This document shows, piece by piece, positions 4,317 through 39,479 of a stretch of DNA of 47,986 nucleotides. Under the pieces are notes generated by a model that worked only from the letters and a program-made list of their open reading frames with translations, did no database searches and had not been told where the DNA came from. This stretch comes from Methylocystis sp. Lineage in GTDB: Bacteria > Pseudomonadota > Alphaproteobacteria > Rhizobiales > Beijerinckiaceae. Position numbers and translations under genes: made by a program. The stretch's first letter is position 1; every line of letters starts with the position of its first letter. Location of the stretch: NCBI RefSeq assembly GCF_021731785.1, contig NZ_JAKFWS010000048.1, positions 1 to 47,986 of the forward strand. The letters are read 5' to 3'.

Positions 4317-7004
4317 GTGCGCAAGCTGACTCTCCTGATCGCCATGTTGATTGCGACGCTGGCCGCTCCCCTGGCCGCTCCCCTGGCGCGCGCCGACGAA
4401 GCGCCGGACTCGATCGACCAGTTCAACGCTCGTCTCGATCGCGTCCGCGACACGCTCGATGAAGTGCAGAAGACGCTGGAACAGTCCGAGCTGTCCGACG
4501 CCGCCTTGCGCAATCTGCGCGCCCGCATCGAACCGCTGCCGCATGAGCTGGACGAGACGATCGAAAAGCTGACGCCGCGTCTGGCGGCCATCGAAGCGAG
4601 ATTGAAGGAACTCGCGCCCGCTGCCACAAAACCTCAGGAAGCGCCGAAGGAAGCTCCCAAGCCGGCGGAGAAACCGCAGGAGCCCAAGCCGTCGTCTAAG
4701 CCTCCCGTCAAGAGCCGCGTCGAGAACGCGCCGCCGGCGCGAGGTCCGCCGGTCGCCGCGCCTGAGGCCGCGCCGAGCGAAGCGGAGCAGCCCGATGCGG
4801 CGGCGCGCGTCAGCGCCAACGCTGAGCTTGAAGACCAGCGTCGCCTTTTCGACGCGATCGACGCGACGTTGAAGCGCGCGCGCGCCATGCAGCTCGAAGC
4901 GCAACAAGTCGTCGTCGCGATCGTCGCGCGTCAGCGCGGACTCTTCGCGAAGAATCTTTTTCTACGCACCCCGAATTTTTTCTCGCCTGTATTGTGGCGC
5001 GCCGCGCTTGAAGAAGCGCCGACAGTCGCCAGCGCATCGGCGAACTTTCTTTCCGACCGAACGTCGAATCTCGTCGATCGCGTCAACAACGGCCAGCGCG
5101 CGCAGTTTTTCGCGGTTCTTTTTTTAATCGCGGCGGGCGTCGCGTTGGCGCTGTTCATGGCGCGCCGCATCGTGCGGCGCGTCGACCGCAACGCCACGCC
5201 GACGCCTTTGCGCAAGGCGGCGGGCGCCGGATGGTCAGCGCTCGTCGTGGCGGCTGTGCCCGTCGCCGCGATCGTGGCGCTGGGCTTCGCGTTCGATGCT
5301 TTCGATCTCATCGACTCGACGCTCGAACCGATTTGGCGGCGCTGTGTCGAAGGCGTAGCGCGCGTCGCCTTCGCCTATGCGATCGCGCGCGCGGTTTTCG
5401 CGCCATCGCATCCGAATTGGCGGCTCATCGATCCGGGCGATCGTCTCGCCAGACTCCTTACACAACTCGTCACGCTGGCTGCGCTGACATTTTCCACCGC
5501 GCGTCTCCTGGAGCAACTGGAAGAATCGGTGCAGGCTGGGCTTTCTCTCGTCATCGTGACGCGCGGGCTTGGCGTGATGATCGTCGCGGCGCTTATCACT
5601 ATCGCGCTCTTCAACCTGCCAAGGCGCGTCGAAATCGGAAAGGGCGCGGTCGTTGCGACGGCTGAGGATCGCGACTGGGTGAGCGTCGCGCGTTTCTTCG
5701 GCGCCCTCCTCGCGGTCGTGCTCGTCGGCGCATGCGGGGTCGGCTATGTCACCTTCGCCAATTTCGTCATTCTGCAAATCGGCTGGACTGCGGCGGTCCT
5801 GGCGATTCTCTACGTCGTTGTGACGCTGCTGCGCGGCGGCGTCGAGGCCGCGTTCGCGCCAACAAGTTTCCTTGGCCGCAATATGATCAGCGGTCTTGGC
5901 GTGCGCCGCGAGCAGCTTGCTCCTTTCGCCGTGCTGCTGTCCGGCGTCGCCACGCTTCTCTGTTTTCTGGCGGCGGCGCTGGCGGCGATCGCGCCGCTTG
6001 GCTACGAGTCCGGAGATTTCCTCGTCAATATTCGTTCAGCCTTCATTTCCTTCAAGATCGGCGACGTCACCATCTCGCCCTCGAGCGCGATTGTGGCGAT
6101 GCTGGTCTTCGCCGCGGCGCTTGCCGCGACTCAAGGCCTGCGCCGCTGGCTCGACACGCGTTTTCTGCCGCTGACCCGACTTGATCTGGGGTTGCGCAAT
6201 TCGATCAGCGCGACGCTCGGCTATATCGGATTCATTTTCGCCGCGGCGCTCGCTCTGTCTTATGTCGGGCTTGGGTTCGAAAAACTCGCGATCGTCGCTG
6301 GCGCCCTTTCCGTCGGCATCGGCTTTGGCCTTCAGTCGATCGTCAACAATTTTGTCTCCGGACTGATCCTGCTCTGGGAGCGCGTGATCCGGGTCGGAGA
6401 CTGGGTCGTCGTCGGCGACGAGCAAGGCTATGTCAAACGGATCAATGTCCGCTCCACGGAGATCGAGACCTTCGATCGCGCGACGATGATCGTGCCGAAC
6501 TCCAATCTTGTCGCGGGCGTCGTGAAGAATTGGCTGCGCGGCGACAAAGTCGGCCGCATCAAGATCGGCATCACGCCCCATGCCGGCGTCGATCCCGAGA
6601 GAATGCGCGACATTCTTCTTGCCGTTGCGCGCGCGCAGGAAGGCGTATTGCGGATTCCCGCCCCTCAGGTCATGTTCCTCGGCATGGAGGCGAACGCCTT
6701 CAAATTCGAACTGTGGTGCTATGTCGAAGACGTCGAACAGTCGGCGCGGGTGCGCAGCGATCTGCACTTCGATCTTTACCAGCGCCTCAATGAGGCCGGA
6801 ATCACGATTGGACCGGCCGCCGCCGCTCCGCCGCCGACGATCGTTCAGATACCGGAACTCGATAAGCTCGCCGCCGCCGCCGCCGCGAGCGCCTTGGCGA
6901 TCGAGGCTGGTCTGGTGGGCGCCAAGAGCGACGATGAGCCATCCGCAAAGTCCGACGACTCGTTGGAAGAGGCCGCCCGATACGACCGCGCTCAGGCGAA
7001 GTAA
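4317..7004 (+). CDS. large mechanosensitive channel, DUF3772 plus MscS domain
   Basis: The 895-aa protein starts at GTG 4317 behind TAGGGAAA. Its order is: signal peptide (1-27, with a duplicated LAAP unit ending ARADEA); a coiled-coil DUF3772-like periplasmic region (about 30-110); a Pro/Lys/Ala-rich linker (about 100-165); a second helical periplasmic segment; about ten membrane helices from residue 260 on; and a C-terminal MscS domain. The pore-lining helix and beta domain are clear in SVGIGFGLQSIVNNFVSG, WERVIRVGDWVVVG and IVPNSNLVAGVVKNW. Proteins of this plan sit in the inner membrane and open on hypo-osmotic shock. The last 50 residues are Ala/Asp/Lys-rich and probably disordered. It stands alone between the aminomutase and a CAP lipoprotein. 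Confidence 0.93.
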   Translation: MRKLTLLIAMLIATLAAPLAAPLARADEAPDSIDQFNARLDRVRDTLDEVQKTLEQSELSDAALRNLRARIEPLPHELDETIEKLTPRLAAIEARLKELAPAATKPQEAPKEAPKPAEKPQEPKPSSKPPVKSRVENAPPARGPPVAAPEAAPSEAEQPDAAARVSANAELEDQRRLFDAIDATLKRARAMQLEAQQVVVAIVARQRGLFAKNLFLRTPNFFSPVLWRAALEEAPTVASASANFLSDRTSNLVDRVNNGQRAQFFAVLFLIAAGVALALFMARRIVRRVDRNATPTPLRKAAGAGWSALVVAAVPVAAIVALGFAFDAFDLIDSTLEPIWRRCVEGVARVAFAYAIARAVFAPSHPNWRLIDPGDRLARLLTQLVTLAALTFSTARLLEQLEESVQAGLSLVIVTRGLGVMIVAALITIALFNLPRRVEIGKGAVVATAEDRDWVSVARFFGALLAVVLVGACGVGYVTFANFVILQIGWTAAVLAILYVVVTLLRGGVEAAFAPTSFLGRNMISGLGVRREQLAPFAVLLSGVATLLCFLAAALAAIAPLGYESGDFLVNIRSAFISFKIGDVTISPSSAIVAMLVFAAALAATQGLRRWLDTRFLPLTRLDLGLRNSISATLGYIGFIFAAALALSYVGLGFEKLAIVAGALSVGIGFGLQSIVNNFVSGLILLWERVIRVGDWVVVGDEQGYVKRINVRSTEIETFDRATMIVPNSNLVAGVVKNWLRGDKVGRIKIGITPHAGVDPERMRDILLAVARAQEGVLRIPAPQVMFLGMEANAFKFELWCYVEDVEQSARVRSDLHFDLYQRLNEAGITIGPAAAAPPPTIVQIPELDKLAAAAAASALAIEAGLVGAKSDDEPSAKSDDSLEEAARYDRAQAK

Positions 7005-7921: not shown

Positions 7922-8989
7922 ATGGACGCCGATAAACAGCGTCGGATCGTTGATGCGTCGCTGCTTCGCGCGACCGTTGACCAGTTTGTCGAGCGATCGA
8001 TGCATCCGGCCGCTGACATCCGGCAATTCGAAAAGCTCGCGCTCGGGCTGATCGACATTATCGACTCTGAAACAGTGGCCCGCGTGGCGCTGCCGCTCTG
8101 CTTCCATTCCGAGACGCCTCCCTCAATTTTCGCACGTCTGTTCGAGAAGGGCGGCGCTGCAGCTGCGCTCGCCTTTCAATTCGCGCCTAAGCTTGCGCGT
8201 CGCGACATGATGGCCGCCGCCGAGCAGGGGCCCGCGCAATTCGCGGCGGCCATCGCTCGCCGACGGGATCTCGATCGGGAGACGATGCTGGCGCTTGCTA
8301 CGCGCAGCGAGGGGGAGGTGCTTCGCGCGCTGGCCGGCAATCTGTCCGCACACCTTGATTCGGCGTCAAGGCGCGCGTTGGTCATGGCGGCGCGAGACGA
8401 CTTGGCGCTCGCGCGAATGCTGCTCAACCGCGACGATCTCGATCTTGATCCGGAACCGCTTTTCCTGGCGGCGAGCCGCCTCGAGCGCATGGCGATCGTG
8501 CTCAACGCCGCGCGCGAAATATTGGCGAGCGGCGCGACCGAGGCGCCGCTTCGCGCCGACGTCGACTTCGTTGCGAAAATGGAAGCGGCGGCGCGACGCT
8601 TTGATCGCGGCGCTATGGCCGTTCTCCTTTCCGAGGCGCTCGAGTGCCGAAAGGATCGCGCTCGCGCGATTGTCGTCGACCATCTCGGGGAAGCGTTCGC
8701 CCTCGCGCTCAATGCGATCGGCGTTCCGCTTGAAGCGGCGACGCGTATCCTGTTTTCCGCTTCTCCGAGCAGCGGACAGAACGCCGACGTCGTGCGCGCC
8801 TTGATCGGTTTGATTCGGTCGACGCCGCAGCGCGCAGCGTCGCGGATTGTCGGCGCAGTGACCGGCGCCGCGCGATCGGAGTGCGAGAGTTCTCGCCGCC
8901 CGATGCGAGAAGACACCGGTGGGTCGACGTGGCGCCGCACAGCGTCGCAATTGCCGCGGCCGTTGCGCAAACTCGATCAATCCGCTTGA
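7922..8989 (+). CDS. DUF2336-family protein
   Basis: The 355-aa protein is almost entirely alpha-helical, with HEAT-like repeats. Recognisable parts are VDQFVERSMHPAADIRQFEKLAL, the RVALPLCFHSETPPSIF region and repeated helices of the type FAAAIARRRDLDRETMLALA. This matches the alphaproteobacterial DUF2336 family, whose role is not established. The C-terminal 50 residues are low-complexity and basic. It lies 18 bases before the end of a convergent DUF1491 gene and near a DivJ-like kinase, a neighbourhood that I recall as recurrent in Hyphomicrobiales. No membrane segment or signal peptide is visible, so it is probably cytoplasmic. Confidence 0.8.
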   Translation: MDADKQRRIVDASLLRATVDQFVERSMHPAADIRQFEKLALGLIDIIDSETVARVALPLCFHSETPPSIFARLFEKGGAAAALAFQFAPKLARRDMMAAAEQGPAQFAAAIARRRDLDRETMLALATRSEGEVLRALAGNLSAHLDSASRRALVMAARDDLALARMLLNRDDLDLDPEPLFLAASRLERMAIVLNAAREILASGATEAPLRADVDFVAKMEAAARRFDRGAMAVLLSEALECRKDRARAIVVDHLGEAFALALNAIGVPLEAATRILFSASPSSGQNADVVRALIGLIRSTPQRAASRIVGAVTGAARSECESSRRPMREDTGGSTWRRTASQLPRPLRKLDQSA

Positions 8990-9017
8990 CGCTGGACCTC
9001 CAAGAGTCTGGAGCGCT

Positions 9018-9368
9018 CTACGCGGCGAGGTCGACGAACACGCGACCGTCGCGATCCTCGATCTCGACGATCCACAGGTCGGGGTCGAACATGATCTCGC
9101 GTTTCAATCGCTGCTCGGCTCCCGCCGGATCAAGCCAGTCGTCTGCATGGACCCGCGCGAACAGCCGGTCGACGCCCATCGGCAGTTCTTCGCTTTGCGG
9201 GGCAGGACCATAGACCGCGGCCCGTCCGTCCAGCCGATCGAGCTTTACGAAAATAGCACCCGCTTCGGCGGCGCCGCGCCGGCGCAGCATGGCGACGGCG
9301 CCTTGCACCTCAGCCCGGCGGATCAGCGCGGAGACGAATATGTCGGACCTCAATCGCATAAGGCGCAA
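9018..9368 (-). CDS. DUF1491-family protein
   Basis: The 116-aa product shows the whole DUF1491 pattern: LRSDIFVSALIRRAEVQGA at the start, GAIFVKLDRLDGRAAVYGPAP in the middle and DPDLWIVEIEDRDGRVFV at the end. It is a small single-domain cytoplasmic protein restricted largely to Alphaproteobacteria, and its function is unknown. It reads in the same direction as the peptidoglycan-binding and DivJ-like kinase genes upstream (gap about 40 bases), so all three may share a transcript. Start ATG 9368 gives the usual family length. Confidence 0.85.
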   Translation of the reverse strand: MRLMRLRSDIFVSALIRRAEVQGAVAMLRRRGAAEAGAIFVKLDRLDGRAAVYGPAPQSEELPMGVDRLFARVHADDWLDPAGAEQRLKREIMFDPDLWIVEIEDRDGRVFVDLAA

Positions 9369-9407
9369 ATTAGCGCTTGAGCGGCGCCATTGTCGAACCC
9401 GAACCGT

Positions 9408-10151
9408 TTAGGGGCGCGCCAACCCTGAAAGCGTCGCAAGCAGCTTGAGAACCTTCGGCGTAATTTTGCCTTTGCCCGGCTGGCCGGCGTCGCGTTCGAA
9501 CTTCTCCAAGGCGTGACGCGTCGCGTTGTTGAGAACGCCGTCCGCACGCACCACGTAGCCAAGCCTCAAGAGCGCGCGCTGCGCATAAAGGACGTTTTTG
9601 TCGACCTGCGCAGTTTTTTCAGGGCTTGCCGCCTTCTCGGTCTTGTCCGCCTTGTCGGCGCTCGCGGTCGGCGGCGCCTTGCTGAGAATCAACAGGCCGA
9701 TGGCGTCGCGCGTCTTGTCCGTACGCGTCAAATCGGCCTTCGCCGGCTCGGTCTTGCCGGCCTCGAGGGGTTTGGCGTCGAGCTTTTCGAGCTTGCTGGC
9801 GATGGCGTCTTTGGGCGTAGGCCGCGCCTGAATGAAGGTCTCCCGCTCGGTTCGCGCAGCTTCGATCGCTGCCGGCCGCGTCGGAGGCGTCGGCGGGACC
9901 GTAATGGCATTTGAACGCTGAGCCGAGAAAAGCGGCGCCGGATGTCTTCCATCCTGAAAAAACAGCGCGTTCATCGGAACGCCGATCGCCGCCACCGCGG
10001 CGATGCCGAGGATCAGCGTCACGCCGATCCGCCTCGCTCCGAACATGCGTGCGAGGAATGAGCGGCGACCTTTGCGACTTGCGGCGCGCGGCGGCGCGCG
10101 GTCGCTGGGCGAAGCCTGAAAGCGTGAGGCGTAGAGCGAAGCGTCAGGCAA
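9408..10151 (-). CDS. membrane-anchored peptidoglycan-binding domain protein
   Basis: The 247-aa protein has a basic cytoplasmic N-terminus (residues 1-40), one transmembrane helix (IGVTLILGIAAVAAIGVPMNALF, about 42-64), a long Pro/Ala/Lys-rich linker and a C-terminal PG_binding_1-like domain (about 185-247: VLYAQRALLRLGYVVRADGVLN, TRHALEKFERDAG). The type II topology places the domain in the periplasm, where such domains hold proteins to the wall. It overlaps the end of the histidine kinase gene by 8 bases, which implies translational coupling, and the pair may link cell-cycle signalling to the envelope (inference). Confidence 0.85.
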   Translation of the reverse strand: MPDASLYASRFQASPSDRAPPRAASRKGRRSFLARMFGARRIGVTLILGIAAVAAIGVPMNALFFQDGRHPAPLFSAQRSNAITVPPTPPTRPAAIEAARTERETFIQARPTPKDAIASKLEKLDAKPLEAGKTEPAKADLTRTDKTRDAIGLLILSKAPPTASADKADKTEKAASPEKTAQVDKNVLYAQRALLRLGYVVRADGVLNNATRHALEKFERDAGQPGKGKITPKVLKLLATLSGLARP

Positions 10152-23732: not shown

Positions 23733-24818
23733 ATGGCTCCAGACCCCAGTCCGCTCCCAAAAGGCAATGGACAAGCTTCGTCAAAAATCGAAGAGCTTCA
23801 CGTGCTCTGGATCACCGCTGGGCTCGGCTGCGACGGCGATTCGGTTTCAATCACCGCCGCGAGTGAACCGAGCATCGAAGACATCGTCCTTGGGGCGATA
23901 CCCGGCCTGCCAAAGGTCCACCTGCACAATGCGGTGCTGTCCTACACGGTTGGCGATGATTTTATGAAGCCGTTCCATCAGGGTGCCCACGGCGAACTCG
24001 AACACTTCGTCCTTGTTGTCGAAGGTTCGATTCCAAATGAAAATCTCAGCGGCGACGGATATTGGGCTGCCGTCGGCACCGATACCGCGACCGGCCAACC
24101 AATCAAAACCACCGAATGGATTGACCGGCTGGCGCCCAAGGCGCTCGCGGTCATCGGCGCCGGCACCTGCGCCACATTTGGCGGCATCCATGCGATGAAG
24201 GGAAATCCTACCGGCTGCATGGGGCTTCAAGATTATCTTGGAGTCGAATGGAAATCCAAGGCGGGCCTGCCGATCGTCAGCGTGCCGGGCTGTCCGGTCC
24301 AGCCGGACAATTTCATGGAGACGTTCCTTTATCTCCTGCGTCAGCTCGCAGGTCTCGCGCCGATGATTCCTGTCGATGGGCACGGCCGTCCACGCTGGCT
24401 GTTTGGTCCCACCGTTCATGAGGGATGCGATCGAGCCGCTTATTATGAGGAAGCCGATTTCGCGCATGAATATGGCTCACGAAAATGCTTGGTGAAGATC
24501 GGCTGCTGGGGCCCGGTGGTTCAGTGCAACGTGCCCAAGCGCGGTTGGATCGCCGGTCTTGGCGGCTGCCCCAATGTCGGCGGCATTTGCATCGGCTGCA
24601 CCATGCCGGGCTTTCCTGACAAATTCATGCCGTTCATGGACGAGCCGCCCGGTGCCCGCATCTCGTCGGTTCTGGTCAAGCCCTACGGTGTCCTGATCCG
24701 CAATCTCCGCAAGATCACCAATCACACGCTGAACAAAGAACCGAAATGGCGCAAGAACACGCCGGCTTACGCCACCGGTTACGATCCTGATAGGCCGAAC
24801 AAGACTCATCCACTCTAA
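23733..24818 (+). CDS. hhyS: group 1h [NiFe]-hydrogenase small subunit
   Basis: This subunit carries the iron-sulfur relay taking electrons from the active site. From ATG 23733 (AAAGGA upstream) it is 361 aa. The proximal motif is LGCDGDSVS, with Cys33 and Asp36 where standard enzymes have CxGC; the other proximal ligands are Cys146 (GAGTCATFGG) and Cys187 (PGCPVQP). Distal and medial ligands include His229, Cys232, Cys252 and Cys258, then Cys265, Cys279, Cys286 and Cys289. The Asp ligand with three [4Fe-4S] clusters is known from the Ralstonia eutropha actinobacterial-type enzyme. There is no Tat signal peptide or membrane anchor, so the enzyme should be cytoplasmic. The large subunit gene follows after 16 bases. 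The family oxidises H2 at atmospheric levels in other bacteria; that activity here is inferred. Confidence 0.95.
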   Translation: MAPDPSPLPKGNGQASSKIEELHVLWITAGLGCDGDSVSITAASEPSIEDIVLGAIPGLPKVHLHNAVLSYTVGDDFMKPFHQGAHGELEHFVLVVEGSIPNENLSGDGYWAAVGTDTATGQPIKTTEWIDRLAPKALAVIGAGTCATFGGIHAMKGNPTGCMGLQDYLGVEWKSKAGLPIVSVPGCPVQPDNFMETFLYLLRQLAGLAPMIPVDGHGRPRWLFGPTVHEGCDRAAYYEEADFAHEYGSRKCLVKIGCWGPVVQCNVPKRGWIAGLGGCPNVGGICIGCTMPGFPDKFMPFMDEPPGARISSVLVKPYGVLIRNLRKITNHTLNKEPKWRKNTPAYATGYDPDRPNKTHPL

Positions 24819-24834
24819 ATTAAGGGACCGCACC

Positions 24835-26655
24835 ATGGTCGACCTCGCAACTCGACGTTCGGCGCCCCCGAGCACCCAAAAAGCCTCGCCAAACCTCGTT
24901 GAGAAGAACTGGGACCCGATCACCCGGATCGTGGGGAGTCTGGGAATCTTCACCAAAATCGACTTCGAGAATCGGCGTGTCGCCGAATGTCACAGCACGT
25001 CGTCGATCTTTCGCGGCTACAGCATCTTCATGAAGGGCAAGGATCCCCGCGATTCCCACTTCATCACCAGTCGCATCTGCGGTATCTGCGGCGACAATCA
25101 CGCAACGTGCTCAGTCTATGCACAAAACATGGCTTACGGAATTAAGCCGCCTAATTTGGCCGAATGGATCATCAATCTCGGCGAAGCCGCAGAATATATG
25201 TTCGACCACAACATTTTTCAGGACAATTTGGTCGGCGTCGACTTCTGCGAGCAGATGGTCAAGGAAACCAATCCGAGCGTTTGGGCCAGGGCGCAAAGAA
25301 CGCCGGCGCCGCACGCCGATGCGCACGGTTACCGAACCATCGCCGACATCATGACGGCGCTCAATCCGTTTTCGGGCGAATTTTATCGTGAGACATTGAT
25401 TGTGAGCCGCTACACGCGTGAAATGTTCAGCCTGATGGAGGGGCGCCATGTGCATCCCTCCACCCTCTATCCCGGCGGCGTCGGCACCGTGCCGTCGAAC
25501 CAGCTTTTCACCGAATATTTGACCCGTCTCGTGCGCTATGTCGAATTCATGAAGAAATGCGTGCCGCTGCACGACGACTTGTTCGACTTCTTCTATGAGG
25601 CGTTGCCGGGATATGAGGAGGTCGGACGTCGACGCATTCTGCTTGGATGCTGGGGCGCGTTCCAGGATCCGAACCATTGCGACTACACCTATAAGAACAT
25701 GACCGACTGGGGTCGGAAAATGTTCGTCACCCCAGGCGTCGTCGTTGACGGAAAGCTTGTCACGACGGACCTCGTCGACATCAATCTGCAGATTCGCATC
25801 CTGCGCGGGCGGTCATTCTATGAGGATTGGGACAATTGCGAAACCTTCGTCAAGAGCGACCCGCTGGGCAATCCCGTCGATCAGAAGCACCCGTGGAATC
25901 AGACGACCATTCCAAGGCCGCAGAAGCGCGACTTCGCCAACAATTACTCATGGGTGATGTGTCCGCGCTGGCTCGACAAGAGCAGCGGCGACCATCTTGC
26001 GCTTGATACCGGCGGCGGCGCTTTTGCCCGGCTCTTCTCGACAGCGCTCGCCGGACTCGTCGATATCGACGGCTATGTCAAAGCCACCGGCGACAGCGTC
26101 AAGATTCATCTGCCCAAGACAGCGCTCAAACCAGCAGTCGACTTTGAGTGGAAGGTTCCCAAGTGGAGCAATGCGATCGAACGTGATCGGGCGCGCACCT
26201 ATTTCCAGGCCTATTGCGCCGCGGCGGCGTATTATTTCCTGGAGCAGGCGTTTGCAGAACTGCAGGCGGGCCGCACGAAGACATGGACCGAGTTCGAAGT
26301 TCCCGAAGAGGCGATCGGCTGCGGATTCCACGAGGCGGTTCGCGGCGTGCTGTCACACCATCTCGTCATAAAAGACAAGAAGATCGCCAATTATCATCCC
26401 TATCCGCCGACGCCTTGGAATGCGACGCCGAGGGACGATTTTGGCACGCCCGGACCTTACGAAGACGCGATTCAGAACACGCCGATCTTTGAAGAAAATG
26501 GGCCGGACAATTTCAAGGGCATCGACATCATGCGCGCGGTGCGCAGTTTCGATCCCTGCCTCCCATGCGGCGTGCATATGTATGTCGGCGGCGGGAGGAC
26601 CATTGAGACCAGGCATTCCCCGATGTTTGGCGCATCCCGAAAGCCATCGCCATGA
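24835..26655 (+). CDS. hhyL: group 1h [NiFe]-hydrogenase large subunit
   Basis: The large subunit holds the NiFe(CN)2CO site. It is 606 aa. The N-terminal L1 motif is SRICGICGDNHATCS (Cys82, Cys85, His89) and the C-terminal L2 motif is DPCLPCGVH (Cys575, Cys578, His581); the four Cys bind Ni. After His581 there are 25 residues (MYVGGGRTIETRHSP and on) that the maturation protease must remove. The GDNHATCSVYAQNMAYGI stretch and the long insert with RILLGCWGAFQDPNHCDYTYKN are features of the actinobacterial-type group. The stop overlaps the start of the NifU-like gene (ATGA). The protease and a full hypFCDEAB set lie downstream in the same operon, so maturation should be self-contained. Confidence 0.95.
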   Translation: MVDLATRRSAPPSTQKASPNLVEKNWDPITRIVGSLGIFTKIDFENRRVAECHSTSSIFRGYSIFMKGKDPRDSHFITSRICGICGDNHATCSVYAQNMAYGIKPPNLAEWIINLGEAAEYMFDHNIFQDNLVGVDFCEQMVKETNPSVWARAQRTPAPHADAHGYRTIADIMTALNPFSGEFYRETLIVSRYTREMFSLMEGRHVHPSTLYPGGVGTVPSNQLFTEYLTRLVRYVEFMKKCVPLHDDLFDFFYEALPGYEEVGRRRILLGCWGAFQDPNHCDYTYKNMTDWGRKMFVTPGVVVDGKLVTTDLVDINLQIRILRGRSFYEDWDNCETFVKSDPLGNPVDQKHPWNQTTIPRPQKRDFANNYSWVMCPRWLDKSSGDHLALDTGGGAFARLFSTALAGLVDIDGYVKATGDSVKIHLPKTALKPAVDFEWKVPKWSNAIERDRARTYFQAYCAAAAYYFLEQAFAELQAGRTKTWTEFEVPEEAIGCGFHEAVRGVLSHHLVIKDKKIANYHPYPPTPWNATPRDDFGTPGPYEDAIQNTPIFEENGPDNFKGIDIMRAVRSFDPCLPCGVHMYVGGGRTIETRHSPMFGASRKPSP

Positions 26656-27173
26656 GCTCAGAAGCGCGCGAGGAAGAGACGCTGGAGCAGGGCTTGGCGC
26701 GGCTGGACGCGCTGACCGGCGCGCTTGAGCGCGTCGGCGACGCGAAGGCGCAGGAGGCGGCGCGGGATCTGCTCGCGCTTTTGCTGGACCTGCACGGCCG
26801 CGCATTTGACCGGCTTAGCGCGATCATTGCGGCTTCGAGCGACGGTCCGGCCTTGTTCGAACGGATCGCCGAGGACAGAGAAATTTCAGCGGTCTTGCTT
26901 CTTCATGGCTTGCACCCCAAGAGCGCCGAGGAACGACTGCAGGAGGTCATTGCGCGCATGCAGCCGCAATGGAGCGCGCGCGGCCTGCGTGTCGCGCTCG
27001 TCAGCGCAGGACAGGCCTTCGCGATCGTCCAGCTTAAACGTAATGGCCGCGCGGAGCCGCCAGAGCGCTTGCGGCTTGAGATCGAAAATGCGCTCATCGA
27101 TGCGGCGCCCGATCTCGAAGATATCTTGATCGAATTGGACATGACCGAAACATGCGCCGAAGCCGCCGCTTAA
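26652..27173 (+). CDS. hydrogenase-associated NifU-like protein lacking the Cys motif
   Basis: This 173-aa protein overlaps hhyL by 4 bases. Its helical N-terminal half (LARLDALTGALERVGDAKAQEAARDLLALL, then ISAVLLLHGLHPKSAEERL) matches the NifU-domain proteins that follow group 1h hydrogenases in actinobacteria. The C-terminal part has the NifU-fold outline (RVALVSAGQAFAIVQLK, then LRLEIENALIDAAPDLEDILIELD). The CxxC that binds an Fe-S cluster in those relatives is replaced by KRNGRAEPPERLR; the only Cys is near the C-terminus (TETCAEAAA). It therefore cannot be a normal Fe-S scaffold. A structural or assembly role in the hydrogenase operon is inferred. Confidence 0.75.
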   Translation: MSSEAREEETLEQGLARLDALTGALERVGDAKAQEAARDLLALLLDLHGRAFDRLSAIIAASSDGPALFERIAEDREISAVLLLHGLHPKSAEERLQEVIARMQPQWSARGLRVALVSAGQAFAIVQLKRNGRAEPPERLRLEIENALIDAAPDLEDILIELDMTETCAEAAA

Positions 27174-27190
27174 GAGAGAGGCGTGAAGGC

Positions 27191-27814
27191 ATGGAAAGGA
27201 TACAATTGGGCGGTTGGGCCTCTCGGCTTCGGCGGTTCGTTACACTGGCGAAAGAGGAGCGTTGCGACTTCTGCTCGAAGGTCATCGCAGCTCGCCACGC
27301 GCATTTGATCGAGCGCGCGACTCGAAAGTTCTTTTGCGCCTGTCCTCAGTGCGCGATCCTTCTGGGCGCCGGCGACCGTTACGCCGCCTTACGCGCGCGC
27401 ACGGATGTGCTGCGCGACTTCGATCTCAACGACGCCGAATGGCAGGGCTTTCGTATTCCTATCGATCTCGCCTTCGTTTTCCGGAGCACGCCGGCGCGGG
27501 GGCCGGTGGCGATTTATCCCGGGCCGGCTGGCGCGACCGAGTCGCAGTTTTCCGACGAGTGCTGGTCGCGGCTGGCCGCAGCCAATCCGGCGCTTGCCGA
27601 CCTGGATCCGGATGTGGAAGCGTTGCTTGTCAATCGAATGAATGGCGCGCGGGAATACTACCTCGTATCGATCGATCACTGCTACGCGCTCGTCGGACTG
27701 ATCCGCAAGCAATGGCGTGGACTGTCTGGCGGCGCAGAGGTCTGGGAGGCTGTGCGAGACTACTTTCAGAAGCTGCGCGACGGCGGCGGAATAGAGGACG
27801 TCCTCCATGGTTGA
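27191..27814 (+). CDS. DUF5947-family hydrogenase-associated protein
   Basis: The likely start is ATG 27191 (GAAGG upstream), giving 207 aa; ATG 27152 would overlap the previous gene. The N-terminal third carries a Cys-rich motif: CDFC (Cys25, Cys28) then FFCACPQC (Cys49, Cys51, Cys54), with two nearby His, which should bind zinc or an Fe-S cluster. It continues with RYAALRARTDVLRDF, WQGFRIPIDLAFVF and REYYLVSIDHCYALVGLIRKQW. This fits the DUF5947 family that I know from actinobacterial group 1h hydrogenase loci. Its function is undefined. It overlaps the DUF6084 gene by 8 bases, so the two are probably made together. Confidence 0.75.
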   Translation: MERIQLGGWASRLRRFVTLAKEERCDFCSKVIAARHAHLIERATRKFFCACPQCAILLGAGDRYAALRARTDVLRDFDLNDAEWQGFRIPIDLAFVFRSTPARGPVAIYPGPAGATESQFSDECWSRLAAANPALADLDPDVEALLVNRMNGAREYYLVSIDHCYALVGLIRKQWRGLSGGAEVWEAVRDYFQKLRDGGGIEDVLHG

Positions 27815-28454
27815 TCTCGACTTTCGCATCGAGGATGTCAAAATCGAGAAATATTCGGCTGCGCCGCTGCTGCTGTTCGCGCTGCATGTCGTCAACCGGA
27901 CGCCTGAACTTCCCGTCCTCAATGTGATGCTGAATTGTCAAATACGCATTGAACCAGCGCGGCGGCGCTATGAGGGCGAAGAGCAGGAACGTCTTTCCGA
28001 TCTCTTCGGTCAGGCGTCGCGCTGGGGCGAGACGCTGCGCAGCCTATTCTGGACGCACGCAAGCGTTTCAGTTCCCTCGGTCGATCCCGAGCGCAAAGTC
28101 GAACTGCCCGTACCCTGCAGCTATGATTTCAATATTGCGGCGACGAAATATTTCCACGGGCTCGAACACGGCGACGTTCCGCTCAAACTCCTATTCAGCG
28201 GCTCGATCTTTTATCGCGACGGCGAAGGCAGATTGCAGATCGAGCAAATTCCTTGGAGCAAGGAATGCGCCTATCGACTGCCTGTCGCAACATGGCGCGC
28301 CATGATGGACCATTACTACCCGCAGAGCGCATGGCTCTGCCTGCATCGTGACGCCTTCGAGGAGCTGGACAGCTATCGGCGGCGGCGAGGATTCCCGACA
28401 TTTGAGCGCGCCGTGCAGGCGCTGCTCGAAGCAAGCGCGGCGGCGGCGGCATGA
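27807..28454 (+). CDS. DUF6084-family hydrogenase-associated protein
   Basis: The 215-aa product has the features of DUF6084: VDLDFRIEDVKIEKYSAAPLLLF at the start, LLNCQIRIE-like MLNCQIRIEPARRRY, WTHASVSVPSV, YDFNIAATKYFHGLEHGDVPL and the IPWSKECAYRLPVATWRAMMD segment. The pattern suggests a beta-rich soluble domain. DUF6084 is found together with DUF5947 in group 1h hydrogenase operons; no biochemical role is known to me. It overlaps both neighbours (8 bases upstream, 4 bases downstream). It has no signal peptide, membrane helix or metal motif. Confidence 0.75.
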   Translation: MVDLDFRIEDVKIEKYSAAPLLLFALHVVNRTPELPVLNVMLNCQIRIEPARRRYEGEEQERLSDLFGQASRWGETLRSLFWTHASVSVPSVDPERKVELPVPCSYDFNIAATKYFHGLEHGDVPLKLLFSGSIFYRDGEGRLQIEQIPWSKECAYRLPVATWRAMMDHYYPQSAWLCLHRDAFEELDSYRRRRGFPTFERAVQALLEASAAAAA

Positions 28455-29809
28455 GGCTCGACTCCATCAAGGCGATCGCCAACGCCGTTCTTTACGAGGG
28501 CTACATCCTCTATCCCTATCGCCCGTCGTCGATCAAAAATCGTCAGCGCTGGACCTTCGGCGGCGTGTTCCCGACGTCCTTCGATCAACAGGGCGACGCC
28601 TCCTTTATGGAGACTCAGGTTCTGTTGCGCGGCGGGGAACAAGCGGCTTTTGGCGCGCATTTCCGCTTCCTGCAGGTCGTCAAGCGCGAGATCGGCCTTC
28701 TCGCGGCGCCGGCGGACAAACTTCCGAAAGACGGGGCGCCGGCGCTGACGCTCGTTCCGAGACTTGATGTCGACGGTCGTGAGTTGCTTGCGTGGGAGGA
28801 GGCGCTAGAGCGTGAGGTCGTCCTGGGTCCGCTGCGGCCGGCCGATATTCAGGACGCCGCCTTCGTAACGCCGCCTCGCTTCGAGCCGGCGCGCAGTTTC
28901 GAGCCGGTTCGCGACAGAAAGGGCCGAATCGTCGCCGTCCTCGTCCGCACATCGCTTGCGATCGATGGCGTCGTTGAAGCGAAAGCGCGAAGACTCGCGC
29001 CTGAATTATGGAAGTTGACGCTGCGGATCGAAAACGTCACGCCGCTTGCCGAGGCCGATCGCCGGGACCGGGCCGCAGCGCAAACTCGCGCCTTCGCTTC
29101 GACACATGTGATCATCACCATCGAAGGCGGCGAGTTTATTTCGTTAGTCGATCCTCCCGAAGCTTTGCGCACGGCGGCGGCGCAATGCACACATGTTGGC
29201 GCCTTCCCGGTCTTGGTCGGCGGTCAAGACAATCGCGCCATGCTCGCCTCGCCGATCATCCTTTATGATTATCCGGCAATCGCGCCGGAAAGTCCCGGCG
29301 ACCTGTACGACGGCACTGAGATCGACGAAATCCTGACGCTCCGCATTCTCGCGATGACTGACGCCGAGAAGCGCGAAATGGCCTCTGTCGACGCGCGTGC
29401 GCGGGCGCTGCTGGAGCGCACGCATGCGTTGACCGCTGACGACATGGCGCGTCTGCATGGCGTGATGCGTGACGGCGCGTCGCAGGCGAGTGAGCTTGAG
29501 CCGCCGCCGGCGATCAAAAACCGCGAGACGCCGCGGCTCGTTTCGCTCATCGACAATGGCCGCCCTCTATGCGTTGGCGCGCGCGTTCGGCTGCGTCCGA
29601 AGTCTGGCGGCGACGTCATGGATATCGCATTGAGAGACAAGCTTGCGGTCGTTGAGGCGATCGAACGCGATTTCGAAGACCGCATTCACATCGCGGTGAC
29701 TTTGCTCGACGATCCGGGCCGCGATCTCGGCGCCGCGGGTTTTCCCGGACATCGCTTCTTCTTCAGCCAAGAGGAGATCGAGCCGATTGCAGCGGGAGAC
29801 GCGCCATGA
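28451..29809 (+). CDS. conserved hydrogenase-operon protein, unnamed, 452 aa
   Basis: I recall similar unnamed proteins in actinobacterial group 1h loci, marked by the opening AIANAVLYEGYILYPYRPSS and by RWTFGGVFP. The protein is soluble and probably mostly beta in the first two thirds (QVLLRGG, FLQVVKREIG, LRIENVTPL), with a recurring acidic helix (TDAEKREMASVDARARALLERTH) in the middle and a C-terminal segment GARVRLRPKSGGDVMDIALRDKLAVVEAIERDFEDRIHIAVTLLDDPG. GHRFFFSQEEIEPI near the end is distinctive. There are almost no Cys, so a direct redox role is unlikely. It overlaps its neighbours by 4 bases each, placing it firmly in the operon just before the maturation protease. Function unknown. 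Confidence 0.75.
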   Translation: MRLDSIKAIANAVLYEGYILYPYRPSSIKNRQRWTFGGVFPTSFDQQGDASFMETQVLLRGGEQAAFGAHFRFLQVVKREIGLLAAPADKLPKDGAPALTLVPRLDVDGRELLAWEEALEREVVLGPLRPADIQDAAFVTPPRFEPARSFEPVRDRKGRIVAVLVRTSLAIDGVVEAKARRLAPELWKLTLRIENVTPLAEADRRDRAAAQTRAFASTHVIITIEGGEFISLVDPPEALRTAAAQCTHVGAFPVLVGGQDNRAMLASPIILYDYPAIAPESPGDLYDGTEIDEILTLRILAMTDAEKREMASVDARARALLERTHALTADDMARLHGVMRDGASQASELEPPPAIKNRETPRLVSLIDNGRPLCVGARVRLRPKSGGDVMDIALRDKLAVVEAIERDFEDRIHIAVTLLDDPGRDLGAAGFPGHRFFFSQEEIEPIAAGDAP

Positions 29810-30453
29810 CGTCAATTCTCGTCGCTTGCGTCGGCAATATTTTCAACGGCGACGACGGTTTTGGGGTCGAGGTGGCGCGCAGGCTTTCACAGGTGAAGCT
29901 GCCAAATGGCGTGCGGGTGATCGATTTCGGCATTCGCGGCATCGATCTCACTTACGCGCTGATGGACGGTTATGACGCCATTATTCTCGTGGATGCGGCG
30001 CAACGAGGGGAAGCGCCGGGCGTCGTCTCCATTGTCGAGCCGGAACGCGTTGAACTGGAGGATCCTTCCTCAGAGGACTTGGCGCTTTCGCCGCATGAGC
30101 TCGATCCGGCGAATGTTCTTCGTCTGGCGTCGGCGCTCGGCGGAAGCTGTCAGCGCGTGCTTCTGGTCGCCTGCGAGCCATTGGCGCTCGGCGGCGAGGA
30201 AGGCGTCATGGGGCTGAGCGAGCCTGTCGCGGCGGCGGTCGGCGTCGCGGCGGAAACGGTGGAAGAGCTGATCGATGAAATGACGCGGCGTAGCCGGCAC
30301 AGCGCTGTCGGGATCGGCGCAACAGGACAAACAAGGAGAAGTGTCATGAGCGGATGGGAAATTGCAGGAATCGTTCTCGGGCTTATCGTCCTTGGCCTGC
30401 TGATCATGAACGCGAGGGACATCTATCGCTACATCAAGATTAGCAACATGTAA
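29806..30453 (+). CDS. hydrogenase maturation protease with in-frame C-terminal membrane tail
   Basis: HyaD/HupD-type endopeptidases remove the C-terminal peptide of the large subunit after nickel insertion. The 215-aa frame begins ILVACVGNIFNGDDGFGVEVA, with GN and the first Ni-sensing acidic residue in GDDGFG, then DAIILVDAAQRGE and the LSPHELDP stretch with the conserved His. The protease domain ends near residue 165. The frame then runs without a stop through a short linker (GIGATGQTRRSV) into a 35-residue hydrophobic segment that looks like the separate DUF6893-type microprotein of other loci. A strong internal ribosome site allows that segment to be made alone. Whether the full fusion is made is unknown. 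Confidence 0.88.
   Translation: MTSILVACVGNIFNGDDGFGVEVARRLSQVKLPNGVRVIDFGIRGIDLTYALMDGYDAIILVDAAQRGEAPGVVSIVEPERVELEDPSSEDLALSPHELDPANVLRLASALGGSCQRVLLVACEPLALGGEEGVMGLSEPVAAAVGVAAETVEELIDEMTRRSRHSAVGIGATGQTRRSVMSGWEIAGIVLGLIVLGLLIMNARDIYRYIKISNM
30346..30453 (+). CDS. DUF6893-like membrane microprotein, internal start within protease frame
   Basis: ATG 30346 is preceded by AAGGAGA (30,333-30,339) with optimal spacing of 7 bases after GGAG. It opens a 35-aa product starting MSGWEIAGIVLGLIVLGLL, with a single membrane helix and the cytoplasmic-looking tail ARDIYRYIKISNM. The tail RxYxKIxxM matches my recollection of DUF6893, a very short protein encoded in actinobacterial group 1h hydrogenase operons. 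Here it shares frame and stop codon with the protease. A membrane anchor or adaptor for the soluble hydrogenase is a reasonable guess. Confidence 0.6.
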   Translation: MSGWEIAGIVLGLIVLGLLIMNARDIYRYIKISNM

Positions 30454-30468
30454 GATTGACAGGACGCG

Positions 30469-32868
30469 ATGAGTTTCTCGGCGGACCAAACGCAGACCCT
30501 CGAATTTCGAGTGCGCGGCACAGTGCAGGGCGTCGGCTTTCGCCCGACGGTCTGGAGGATCGCGCGCCAACTTGGGCTTGCCGGCGAGGTGCTCAACGAT
30601 GGCGAGGGCGTATTGGTCCGCGTCTGCGGCGATCAGGCGCGAATTGAGACGCTGCTTCGACGACTGGCGCGAGAGCCGCCGCCGCTGGCGCGGATCGACG
30701 GCATCGAGAGGCACGAATACGCCGGCCAACTGCCGCAGGATTTTCGCATCGCCGAAAGCCTCGGCGGCGCCGTTCGCACGCAAGTCGCGCCGGACGCTGC
30801 AATCTGCGGCGCCTGCGCGGCGGAGCTGCGAAATCCTGGTGAGCGGCGCTACCGCTATCCTTTCGCCAATTGCACGCATTGCGGACCGCGTCTCAGCATC
30901 GTGACGGGCATTCCCTATGACCGCGCGACGACGACGATGGCGTCCTTCATCCGGTGTGAAGCATGCGAGGCGGAGTATCGCAATCCCAGCGATCGCCGGT
31001 TCCACGCCGAAGCTGTGGCCTGCCCCGCATGCGGACCGACGGCGTCCCTCATCGCATTGGGGCGAGCGGAGGTTCCCGATAATGGCGGCGTCGATGCGGT
31101 CGAGATCGCAGCGCGCTTGGTCGCGCGGGGCGACATCGTCGCCGTCAAAGGGCTTGGCGGCTATCATCTGGCGTGCGACGCGACCAATCCCGACGCCGTT
31201 GCGCGCCTGCGTCGACTTAAGCGCCGTGACGCTAAGCCCTTCGCGCTGATGGCGCGCGATCTTGCGGTCATACGGCGCTACTGCGCGTTCGGCGCTATCG
31301 AGGAGCGCGCGCTCACGAGCGTCGAGGCGCCGATCGTGCTGATGCGCGCGACAGGCCCGCGCCGTTTGCCGGAGGCGATCGCGCCGGGATTGAATACGTT
31401 AGGCTTCATGCTGCCGACGACGCCGCTGCATCTCTTGTTGATGGATCGGTTTGAACATCCGCTGGTGATGACGAGCGGCAATATTTCGGACGAGCCCGCC
31501 GTGATCGACGACGGCGAGGCGCGAGGGCGGCTTTCCGATGTCGCATCGTTCGCCTTGACGCATGACCGCGCCATCGCCAATCGCGTCGACGACTCGGTGG
31601 TGAGGATCATGTGCGGGCGGTCGAGGGTTTTTCGCCTTGCCCGCGGTTATGCGCCCGCGCCGTTGCGTCTGCCGAAAGGCTTTGCCCATGCGCCCGACGT
31701 GCTGGCGTTGGGCGGCGAGCTGAAGGCGACCTTCTGCCTGGTCAAAGATAGCGCCGCGCTCATGTCGCAGCATCAGGGCGACCTTGAAAACGCGGCGACG
31801 TTCGACGACTATCGAAATAATCTGCGTCTCTATCAAAGACTTTTCGATCACGCGCCGTCGGCGATCGTCATCGACCGGCATCCGGAATATCTTGCGTCGA
31901 AACTGGGCCGGGTCGAGGCCGAACGGCGCGGCCTGTCATTGATCGAGGTTCAGCACCATCACGCCCACATCGCCGCCTGTCTTGCCGAAAATGGCCGGCC
32001 GCTCGACGCGCCGCCGGCGCTGGGGATTGTGCTCGACGGATTGGGCTTTGGCGACGACGGGACCATATGGGGCGGTGAATTTTTGCTCGCCGACTATCTC
32101 GGCTATGAGCGGCTGGCGCGATTGAAGCCCGTCGCCATGCCGGGCGGCGCGCAGGCGATTCGCGAACCCTGGCGCAATCTTTATGCGCATCTCAAAGCGG
32201 CGGGCGCGTTCGACGCGGATAGGCTTTCACCTGCTGACGATTGGCAGGCGTTCGATGGCAAACCGCTGGCGATGATCGACAAGATGATCGCGCACGGCGT
32301 CAATTCGCCGTTGGCCTCATCTTGCGGTCGCCTGTATGATGCGGTCGCCGCGGCGCTCGGCCTATGCGCCGATCGTCAGGCCTATGAAGGCGAGGCGGCG
32401 GCGCGACTAGAGGCTCTTGCAGCCGCGGCGCCGAACGAGCGCCGCTTCTATGAATTCGACATGTCCCAGTCGGCGGTGATCGAACTCGATCCGGCGCGTT
32501 TTTGGCGGGCGATGCTGGACGATCTGCGGCAGGGCGTCGCCGCGCCGGTCATCGCGCGCCGCTTCCACCTTGGCCTTGCTGAGTCGATCGCGAAAGTGGC
32601 CGTTCGGCTGGCCGCTATGCGGCGTTTTGAAACAGTGGCGCTGTCGGGCGGCTGCTTTCAAAATCGCCTGCTGTTCGAAAGCGTTCACGACAGGCTGTGC
32701 GAAGCGGGATTGGAAGTGCTGACCCATGCAGACGCGCCCGCTAATGACGGCGGGCTCTCGCTGGGTCAGGCCGCAATCGGAGCCGCGCATCTGATCAGAA
32801 GCGGCGTGAAAAGTGATGGAGAGGACCAGACATGTGTCTCGGCATTCCCGGCTGCATTGTCAGCATAG
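30469..32868 (+). CDS. hypF: carbamoyltransferase HypF
   Basis: HypF uses carbamoyl phosphate and ATP to place a carbamoyl group on the HypE C-terminal Cys, the source of the cyanide ligands. The 799-aa protein has an acylphosphatase domain (FRVRGTVQGVGFRPTVWRIA), two zinc-finger CxxC pairs (CGACAAEL/CTHCGPR and CEACEAEY/CPACGP), a YrdC-like domain (VAVKGLGGYHLACDATN, KRRDAKPFALM) and a Kae1-like domain with VQHHHAHIAACLAE, then LSGGCFQNRLL near the C-terminus. Length is a little above the usual 750-780. It begins 15 bases after the microprotein stop and overlaps hypC by 37 bases. Confidence 0.97.
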   Translation: MSFSADQTQTLEFRVRGTVQGVGFRPTVWRIARQLGLAGEVLNDGEGVLVRVCGDQARIETLLRRLAREPPPLARIDGIERHEYAGQLPQDFRIAESLGGAVRTQVAPDAAICGACAAELRNPGERRYRYPFANCTHCGPRLSIVTGIPYDRATTTMASFIRCEACEAEYRNPSDRRFHAEAVACPACGPTASLIALGRAEVPDNGGVDAVEIAARLVARGDIVAVKGLGGYHLACDATNPDAVARLRRLKRRDAKPFALMARDLAVIRRYCAFGAIEERALTSVEAPIVLMRATGPRRLPEAIAPGLNTLGFMLPTTPLHLLLMDRFEHPLVMTSGNISDEPAVIDDGEARGRLSDVASFALTHDRAIANRVDDSVVRIMCGRSRVFRLARGYAPAPLRLPKGFAHAPDVLALGGELKATFCLVKDSAALMSQHQGDLENAATFDDYRNNLRLYQRLFDHAPSAIVIDRHPEYLASKLGRVEAERRGLSLIEVQHHHAHIAACLAENGRPLDAPPALGIVLDGLGFGDDGTIWGGEFLLADYLGYERLARLKPVAMPGGAQAIREPWRNLYAHLKAAGAFDADRLSPADDWQAFDGKPLAMIDKMIAHGVNSPLASSCGRLYDAVAAALGLCADRQAYEGEAAARLEALAAAAPNERRFYEFDMSQSAVIELDPARFWRAMLDDLRQGVAAPVIARRFHLGLAESIAKVAVRLAAMRRFETVALSGGCFQNRLLFESVHDRLCEAGLEVLTHADAPANDGGLSLGQAAIGAAHLIRSGVKSDGEDQTCVSAFPAALSA

Positions 32869-37806: not shown

Positions 37807-39479
37807 GTGCTCTCCAATAGTAAAGGCGGAAGAATGACCCAGGATCATTCTCGATTTTCCGGCCGCGCTTTCTCGACGATCGGGAAAAAATCCCTGCTTG
37901 TATGTCGCCTCGGCGCGCCGGTCGTGATCGCGCTCGAAGTCGCATCGGCCCTGGCGCAGAACGGCTCGCAAACCTTGCCACCGGTGACCGTGGACGCGCC
38001 GCGCGAAAAGCCGCAAGCCAAAATGCGGCAACAAGCGCCGCGCCCGGTCGCGTCGAGCGTGCGTGCGAGCCGCGTTCACCCCAGCGGTCCGAGACCGCAT
38101 GTGGCGTCGACGCCGCGCGGCGGGACGTCCGCCGCCCAGCAGGTCGGTCCCGCGCTACTTTCCGGGCCGAGCGTCGCGCCGACTCCGGCGCAAGGCGAAA
38201 TCGGCAATCTTCCGCCGGCCATGCCGGCGGCGAGATCGCTCGCGGCGCGCGGCTTGGCATGCTTGGCAATCGCGACTTCATGGACACGCCGTTCAATGTA
38301 ACGAGCTACACGTCGGCGCTTATTGAGAACCAGCAGGCGCGCACTCTACAGCAGGTGCTGGAGAACGATCCGTCGGTTCGCATGAGCACGTCGGCGGGGC
38401 ATATTCGCGAGAATTTCAGAATTCGCGGATTTCCGGTGCTCGGCAGCGAGCTCGCGCTCAACGGCATGTATGGGCTGGCGCCCGACGGCCATGTCCCGAC
38501 AGAGTTTCTCGAGCGGGTCGAAGTGCTCAAGGGCCCGGGCGCGTTGCTCAACGGCATGGCGCCTTTCGGCGCGGTCGGCGGTTCGATCAATCTCGTCACC
38601 AAACATGCGGGCGATGCGCCGATCACCAGCGTCAGCACCGACTACACATCAAGTTCTCAGTTCGGCACGCATATCGACGTTGGGCGGCGCGGCGGCGACC
38701 ATAATCAGTTCGGCCTTCGCTACAACGGAGTTTACCGCAGCGGCGGGACCGCGCTCGACGAACAGTGGAAAGTGCGCGGCCTGAACGCGCTGGCGCTCGA
38801 TTTCCGCGAAGAGCGCGTGAGGCTGTCGATTGACGCCTACCACAGCCAGGAAATCTTCAAGAACGGCAGCGCATTCTTTGCGAGCTTCAGCGGCATCGGG
38901 GTGGCGGCGGCCCCTAGCGCAACCAAGAATCTATTTATAGGTTCGAACGCCCGATTCGAGAACGCGGCGATTGAGGCGCGCGGCGAGCTGGACGTCGCCG
39001 AGAATGTCACCGTTTTCGCCGGCATCGGGTTTTTGGACAGCCGCAACTTCGGCTTCACCAATGGAACCCAGGCCCCCAGCGTCAATCTGCTCGGCAACTT
39101 TACTGGGCCGCGAATCGTCAATCTGCGCGGCTACACCAATACCCTGTCGACGCAGGGCGGCATTCGCGGCCAGTTGGACACGGGCCCGCTGCGCCACCAA
39201 TTCGTGCTGAGCGCCTCGGCGCTGAAATTCAGCCAAAGTTCCGAGTTCGGCTTCAGCGGGTCTTACAGATCTAACATCTATCTGCCCGTCGTGCCGCCTC
39301 AGGCGCCGCCGCCGCCGGTCGTTCCGAACACCGCGTTTAATCCCAGTCGGCCCTATTTCGTAACCGATCCGAGAAAGACCGGAGAGACCTATCTAGCGAG
39401 CCTCGCCTTCGCCGACACCATTTTCCTTCCCTGGGGGCGCTGCGAACCATCATCGGAAACGCGCCATGAGTCAGATTAG
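37807..39479 (+). pseudogene. TonB-dependent siderophore-type receptor, frameshifted and truncated
   Basis: The 5' part (from ATG 37807 or 37834) encodes a signal peptide (LGAPVVIALEVASALAQ) and the LPPVTVDAP start of the mature protein, then ends out of frame at 38,301. The rest lies in the next frame from about 38,222: GEIARGARLGMLGNRDFMDTP, the plug domain (QQVLENDPSVRMSTSAGH, NFRIRGFPV, RVEVLKGPGALLNG, GGSINLVTK) and the first barrel strands. Loss of one base near 38,221 (a Tyr codon reduced to AT) explains the shift. The barrel stops after LASLAFADTIFLP; about half of the usual 700-800 residues are missing and the frame ends at the start of the next gene. It cannot make a working outer-membrane receptor. 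Confidence 0.85.

Follow-up and report, generated by a model that had tools for sequence, protein, structure and literature searches.

Does the open frame at 29806-30453 encode a single, membrane-anchored hydrogenase maturation protease, or two separate genes that have come to share a frame? We addressed this question in a 47,986-nucleotide stretch of Methylocystis sp. DNA (hereafter the window). The frame lies in a hydrogenase cluster with the gene order hhyS, hhyL, 173-aa frame, DUF5947, DUF6084, 452-aa frame, protease, microprotein, hypF, hypC and further maturation genes. Its neighbours are the following.

23733-24818, + strand: hhyS, group 1h small subunit (listed start GTG 23655; two homologues align from ATG 23733)
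24835-26655, + strand: hhyL, group 1h large subunit (profile match; one solved chain found, C. necator HofG 5aa5)
26652-29809, + strand: accessory genes, namely the 173-aa frame, DUF5947, DUF6084 and the 452-aa frame (frames, profiles, locus comparison)
30469-32868, + strand: hypF, next downstream (TIGR00143, 776 bits)

The large subunit of the window shares 85% identity with that of M. parvus and 83% with that of C. necator H16, whose enzyme is classed as group 1h in passages of two papers (PMC9561532, PMC10017518). With HhyL/HhyS, DUF5947, DUF6084 and the protease found in order, the cluster is assigned from its sequence to the group 1h [NiFe]-hydrogenases.

A first-pass annotation of this DNA had reported that the protease frame has no stop before 30,453 and that an internal ATG at 30,346 carries a well-spaced AAGGAGA. 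Both readings were borne out: the frame is stop-free from ATG 29806 until TAA 30451-30453, yielding 215 aa, and ATG 30346 is an internal start in frame with 29806-30453.

29806-30453, + strand: single open frame, protease plus microprotein, 215 aa (frame listing and translation)
29806-30282, + strand: hydrogenase maturation protease (HupD/HycI type), residues 1-159, the part aligning with close relatives (PF01750, TIGR00072, HybD fold)
30294-30345, + strand: former intergenic spacer, now linker, including the ribosome site (locus comparison, junction alignment)
30333-30339, + strand: Shine-Dalgarno sequence AAGGAGA of the microprotein, six bases before ATG 30346
30346-30453, + strand: 35-aa single-helix microprotein, DUF6893-like, stop TAA (pN/pS, 38-row alignment, DUF6893 profile)

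An AlphaFold2 model of the 215-aa product (mean pLDDT 82.6) shows a protease domain, including a helix that extends to residue 169, followed by a weak linker and a single helix at residues 183-214; its best PDB match by Foldseek is E. coli HybD (1cfz). The protease part (first ~160 residues) scores above the cut-offs of both PF01750 (60.2 bits, cut-off 23) and TIGR00072 (114.3 bits, cut-off 47.45), and D17, D63 and H97 are invariant in 35 aligned sequences. We take these residues to correspond to the HybD metal ligands Glu16, Asp62 and His93. Domain scores and conserved residues classify the protein as a predicted M52-type hydrogenase maturation protease, and HhyL carries a tail after DPCLPCGVH that would be its putative cleavage substrate. 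Around the internal start, the folding energy of the RNA was not better than that of shuffles (z 0.56), and a simple scan of 29700-30700 returned no promoter- or terminator-like site.

A protein search over 61 genomes returned 16 other same-genus loci with both genes (L002-L017). All 16 have their own protease stop after 162-180 aa, the length range of the protease in relatives, and the start of the microprotein lies between 1 base ahead of and 53 bases past the first base of this stop. Relative to the protease, the microprotein is in frame 0 in 2 loci, in frame 1 in 8 and in frame 2 in 6. In G220, a 17th locus of the genus that was found later, the genes are likewise separate, so that the fusion occurs in 0 of 17 other Methylocystis loci with both genes. 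Further, an HhyL-alignment scan gave at least 529 loci, of which the best 80 were kept as named loci; protease and microprotein share an open frame in none of the 66 named loci with both (four of which, L043-L046, repeat genomes of the genus set, while 62 are new). In a genus-wide scan, the microprotein lies inside a 265-codon open frame in the window genome only, compared with 38-94 codons in the other 19 matches. A conserved fusion is ruled out by the separate genes in 17/17 genus loci and 66/66 named loci (best 80 of at least 529).

Other apparent fusions did not hold up. A second genus candidate in G032 (query residues 122-215, no stops) proved to be a remnant of a lost cluster, as did G026, and the long open frames around the microprotein in the Streptomyces members of the named loci were rejected since the protease lies in another open frame each time. 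At these two remnants (L031 in G032, 9100-9600; L032 in G026, 8700-9200), hhySL and most of the cluster are gone between fabH and hypF, leaving scraps of a formate/nitrite-type transporter and of the protease plus the microprotein frame, which still has 35 codons but contains Arg and Pro inside the helix.

The origin of the joint could be located in an alignment of the junction in L001-L017.

30284-30285, + strand: one-base deletion relative to close relatives, exact base ambiguous (junction alignment)
30291-30293, + strand: TAG where relatives have the TAA stop, off frame by one in the window (junction alignment)

A single gap column at 30284-30285 is present in the window alone: most close relatives read ATGATGGCGGCGTAA or a variant of it, and the window reads ATGAC-GCGGCGTAG. 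As a base is missing before the ancestral stop, the stop triplet is off frame and the protease frame continues through the spacer into the microprotein. Ten of the 13 close relatives retain the ancestral TAA; L002 has CAA in its place, resulting in a protease of 168 aa, and L008 and L013 have TCA, resulting in 180 aa and an ATGA overlap with the microprotein. Because the microprotein frame is already open upstream beyond the protease stop in 8/13 close relatives, one indel could join both genes, and judging from the alignment the continuity of 29806-30453 is no more than one small mutation gives. The homologue alignment proposed in the first-pass annotation thus showed the stop between the two parts to be missing only in the window assembly and the tail to be a separate gene in relatives, an outcome which that annotation had itself named as speaking against a fusion. 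It had also pointed to a possible frameshift at 30,290-30,345; a frameshift is indeed found, its critical place at about 30,284-30,285 lying just outside that range.

The spacer between protease and microprotein measures 41-50 nt in 10 of the 13 close relatives. Coupling by termination and reinitiation is described as almost abolished at ~20 nt (PMC10666635), a limit that these spacers exceed, so the microprotein should already start independently in those relatives. We consider it very likely that the window holds two genes and that the deletion is private to it, whether mutation or error. The hhy cluster would then encode a maturation protease and, downstream of it, a 35-aa membrane microprotein as a second gene with a ribosome site of its own. 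Ribosomes at the internal ATG 30346 would produce the free microprotein, as in relatives, while those starting from 29806 would, if the deletion is real, produce a protease with a useless or tolerated tail. In that event, the deletion may be fixed and the 215-aa product also made in this strain; since L002, the closest locus, has also lost its original stop, the protease tail may drift towards use. The fusion itself is of little weight, being one indel, real or not, and the microprotein gene matters more.

A sub-case of the two-gene reading is that the missing base reflects an error of sequencing or assembly, the strain having two ordinary separate genes, which we regard as possible though on the doubtful side. 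The window genome assembly is a draft of 197 contigs, a second frame break is found on the same contig (a TonB-dependent receptor, ~38220), and the deletion is absent from every compared relative. However, frame breaks are infrequent in the window genome (2 of 197 conserved genes in 201 kb, not all of them necessarily errors) and the deletion site is outside any long homopolymer. The position of the break, within the final four protease codons, is also what one would expect of a real indel, since it would be tolerated there, though this argument carries little weight. The frequencies come from a survey of the genes of a relative, G018 (80 stretches of 20 kb plus L035) against 20 stretches of 20 kb of the window genome plus the window; the reverse comparison flagged 1 of 198, the TonB-dependent receptor of the window. 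The method needs a second matching piece of ~12 residues and is blind to breaks in last codons, the unflagged window protease included. Frame breaks in the window genome are uncommon but present. The receptor frame (37834-39422, + strand) breaks at ~38220 and, compared with an 811-aa relative in G032, lacks ~280 residues at the C-terminus; it is probably a pseudogene or a second sequence error in the contig.

The microprotein has a single hydrophobic stretch, the best 17-mer being residues 5-21 (mean Kyte-Doolittle 2.61), and ends in a basic tail. We aligned 38 selected microproteins, leaving aside near-duplicates, the Acidobacteriota forms of 65-74 aa and a few others with long starts (the L124 row starts three codons too early). 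A Tyr and the final Met are invariant in this alignment and the Arg before the Tyr is nearly so. Among the best 80 of at least 529 loci, the C-terminal tail RY.[KR]...M is found in 62/66 loci and a final Met in 66/66. The DUF6893 profile (PF21833) matches 37 of the 38 aligned proteins at E up to 1 (best 2.1e-14). With 13.5 bits (E 0.074), the window copy stays below the cut-off of 24.6 and is not called DUF6893 by Pfam's own rule; none of the microproteins in 21 close genomes exceeds that cut-off. By its alignment with members that match PF21833 down to 2.1e-14, the window microprotein is homologous to DUF6893.

For the microprotein codons of the close clade (14 loci, 12 distinct; the divergent L015-L017 left out), pooled pN/pS is 0.18 (pS 0.362, pN 0.065), while the two shifted frames give 1.01 and 1.72. 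Between the window copy and L002, there are 10 synonymous and 6 non-synonymous changes. The microprotein is under purifying selection. Within the best 80 of at least 529 loci, 63 of 64 neighbouring pairs have a Shine-Dalgarno sequence of at least 4 bases ahead of the microprotein, a count that is biased upwards because start codons were chosen with preference for such a sequence. The free, DUF6893-like membrane microprotein with its own ribosome site that had been proposed from the window is in good agreement with these results. Longer forms of 65-74 aa, of the Acidobacteriota type, carry additional sequence between the helix and the shared C-terminal motif (L057, L059, L062, L064, L065, L073, L075, L076 and L081). 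A role as redox carrier is unlikely given that only 5 of the 38 microproteins have any Cys and 2 any His, and no convincing relative of the microprotein was found among solved structures (best E 1.9).

Net charge is higher on the C-terminal than on the N-terminal side of the helix in 34 of the 38 microproteins and equal in 2. According to the positive-inside rule, the more positive flank of a membrane helix faces the cytoplasm. The tail would thus be cytoplasmic, on the same side as HhySL. A protease fused to the N-terminus would then lie outside, or the helix would be inverted, which makes the free 35-aa product from its own start at ATG 30346 most likely the working one.

The distribution of the microprotein was determined with a model grown over five rounds on the same 80 named loci. 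It matches in 66/80 and the protease in 71/80 (best 80 of at least 529), with the 66 loci presumably belonging to Pseudomonadota, Acidobacteriota, Verrucomicrobiota, Chloroflexota and Actinomycetota. Fourteen of the best 80 of at least 529 loci are without a microprotein match; nine of these are also without a protease, their contigs often being short, and five have the protease (L070, L079, L087, L089 and L095). L095 shows a weak match overlapping the protease stop, and the genome of L079 has a match on another contig. The microprotein mostly has 31-39 aa and starts no more than 300 nt after the protease in 64/65 same-strand loci, with an overlap in 17, a gap of 0-20 nt in 17, of 21-60 nt in 21 and of >60 nt in 9 (all within the best 80 of at least 529).

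Within the genus, HhyL is present in 18 of 39 genomes. All 18 also have the microprotein, which is further found in G001 and G026, as an intact copy beside a 63-aa HhyL scrap and as an altered remnant, respectively. At the G001 locus (L033, 8080-8441), the scrap is followed by an apparent protease tail and then the fully intact microprotein, possibly a recent deletion. Across 398 genomes of the phylum and at the thresholds used, both HhyL and the microprotein were found only in the window genome; one positive among 398 tests the false-positive rate, and speaks for a low one, and is not a test of co-occurrence. For many of these genomes, scoring was limited to part of the first-look candidates (19 of 45 in one case). 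Of 38 whole genomes with HhyL, 35 have a microprotein match (one match in 31, two in 4). Two genomes, G073 and G075, carry a short copy beside hypF and a HypB-like frame. A microprotein-like match in L250 (G069, 5872-5964; E 2.4e-7) lies in a 12-kb stretch that holds none of the 13 hhy-region query genes.

In a Streptomyces sample, 54 of 121 genomes have HhyL and 36 of 121 the microprotein, the latter comprising 34 of the 54 HhyL genomes plus G212, with the microprotein on a 6.3-kb contig with hhy accessory genes and no HhyL, and G168, a weak partial match. The 20 Streptomyces HhyL genomes without the microprotein rule out its universal presence with HhyL. In 17 of these 20, HhyL has 71-73% identity and belongs to a divergent lineage, although the microprotein is present in G116, G141 and G143 at an HhyL identity of 69-72%. 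Nineteen of the 20 stretches were covered (L228-L246): the microprotein was found in none of 18 and one has a weak match before the protease, while 3 of the 19 are also without a protease. Three loci of the divergent lineage were mapped (L228, L237, L239) and all are rearranged. Across the genomes compared here, the microprotein is nearly confined to group 1h (hhy) clusters, common and specific to them but not universal. C. necator H16 has it in a gap of the gene table consulted, and the microprotein is missing from all five gene tables examined, which describe themselves as incomplete.

What might the microprotein do? We propose that it is embedded in the membrane, its conserved basic C-terminus facing the cytoplasm, and that it would there dock the cytosolic HhySL enzyme or an assembly intermediate, to which we give somewhat less than an even chance. 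The wider suggestion is more tentative: in five phyla, DUF6893-like microproteins might be the missing subunit by which cytosolic group 1h hydrogenases dock to the membrane, the RY.[KR]...M tail and its free Met gripping HhySL or another partner, for instance the 452-aa protein. The basis for this proposal is co-occurrence, gene position, the predicted helix and the charge pattern, and a conserved single helix with a cytoplasmic motif, gained and lost with HhyL, is compatible with a docking subunit. If true, docking would explain a membrane location without transmembrane helix or signal peptide as well as the loss of affinity on purification. The group 1h enzyme of Methylacidiphilum is described as having neither a transmembrane helix nor a signal peptide, with membrane-fraction activity >2.5-fold that of the soluble fraction, a link which the authors call currently unknown (passages of PMC7174314). 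For the Hhy operon of M. smegmatis, no cytochrome b-like anchor is reported in the relevant passages of PMC6883350.

The C. necator enzyme is reported in PMC7174314, in the passages concerned, to be cytoplasmic and of low affinity although the microprotein gene is present, which counts against docking and would suit a maturation or assembly helper acting with the protease at the membrane instead of on the finished enzyme. The adjacency of microprotein and protease in 64/65 same-strand loci (best 80 of at least 529) points the same way, also where both lie upstream of hhyL (L082, L083, L094, L097), as do the Mycobacterium intracellulare plasmid (L125), where the microprotein is immediately before the protease, and the copies beside hypF in G073 and G075. 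The place beside the protease fits maturation about as well as docking; gene neighbourhood alone cannot separate the two. To our knowledge, however, other [NiFe] maturation systems run without needing such a microprotein, and we judge a helper role rather unlikely.

A fusion in actual use, that is, the membrane-anchored maturation protease of the first-pass annotation tying large-subunit processing to the membrane, perhaps alongside the free microprotein, is very improbable: the frame is open, the protease domain complete and the helix intact with a free C-terminus, and neighbours in 64/65 same-strand loci (best 80 of at least 529) may have products that meet, but no fusion exists in the 17 same-genus or 66 named loci (best 80 of at least 529), the joint is the product of one deletion whose linker is a spacer in relatives, and the charge pattern predicts the C-terminus inside in 34/38, at odds with a cytosolic N-terminal protease. 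Of the two products envisaged for this stretch, the free microprotein is thus retained while a meaningful tethered protease is not.

With two separate genes as the preferred reading, the free microprotein is a concrete candidate for the membrane partner of the group 1h enzyme, present in 66/80 loci (best 80 of at least 529) and five phyla. A large part of the uptake of atmospheric H2 by soils is attributed to high-affinity hydrogenases, group 1h included (passages of PMC7174314). In a section on Methylocystis and Methylocapsa, four genes next to hhyL are mentioned as having no known function, and the microprotein is not named (PMC12319191, section 3.1). A literature search found no paper on DUF6893, and no mention of the microprotein in the titles, abstract openings and passages covered on group 1h/hhy membrane association, anchors, small proteins and hypothetical proteins, with figures, supplements, subscription journals and most preprints outside the search.

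Among known systems, the window protease shares its domain (PF01750, TIGR00072), the HybD fold and the invariant residues with the HycI/HupD proteases and differs from them in a frame that runs into a transmembrane helix, which among the loci compared is seen only in the window assembly. The hhy microproteins match DUF6893 (PF21833), a family of 32 positions whose Pfam description gives no function. Short predicted transmembrane proteins are likewise described in hydrogenase clusters of other trace-gas oxidisers, namely HylTM1-5 (group 1l) and two single-helix proteins (group 1m); going by the description in parts of PMC9561532, HylTM1-5 differ in lying between the structural genes and the group 1m proteins in their length of 82-92 aa. 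Similar to the role proposed here, again by description, is that of HucM of the group 2a hydrogenase Huc, a non-catalytic protein that links an atmospheric-H2 hydrogenase to the membrane (passages of PMC13098282 and PMC10017518). HucM forms a stalk for menaquinone movement (PMC10017518, in part), whereas the window microprotein is one helix of ~35 aa.
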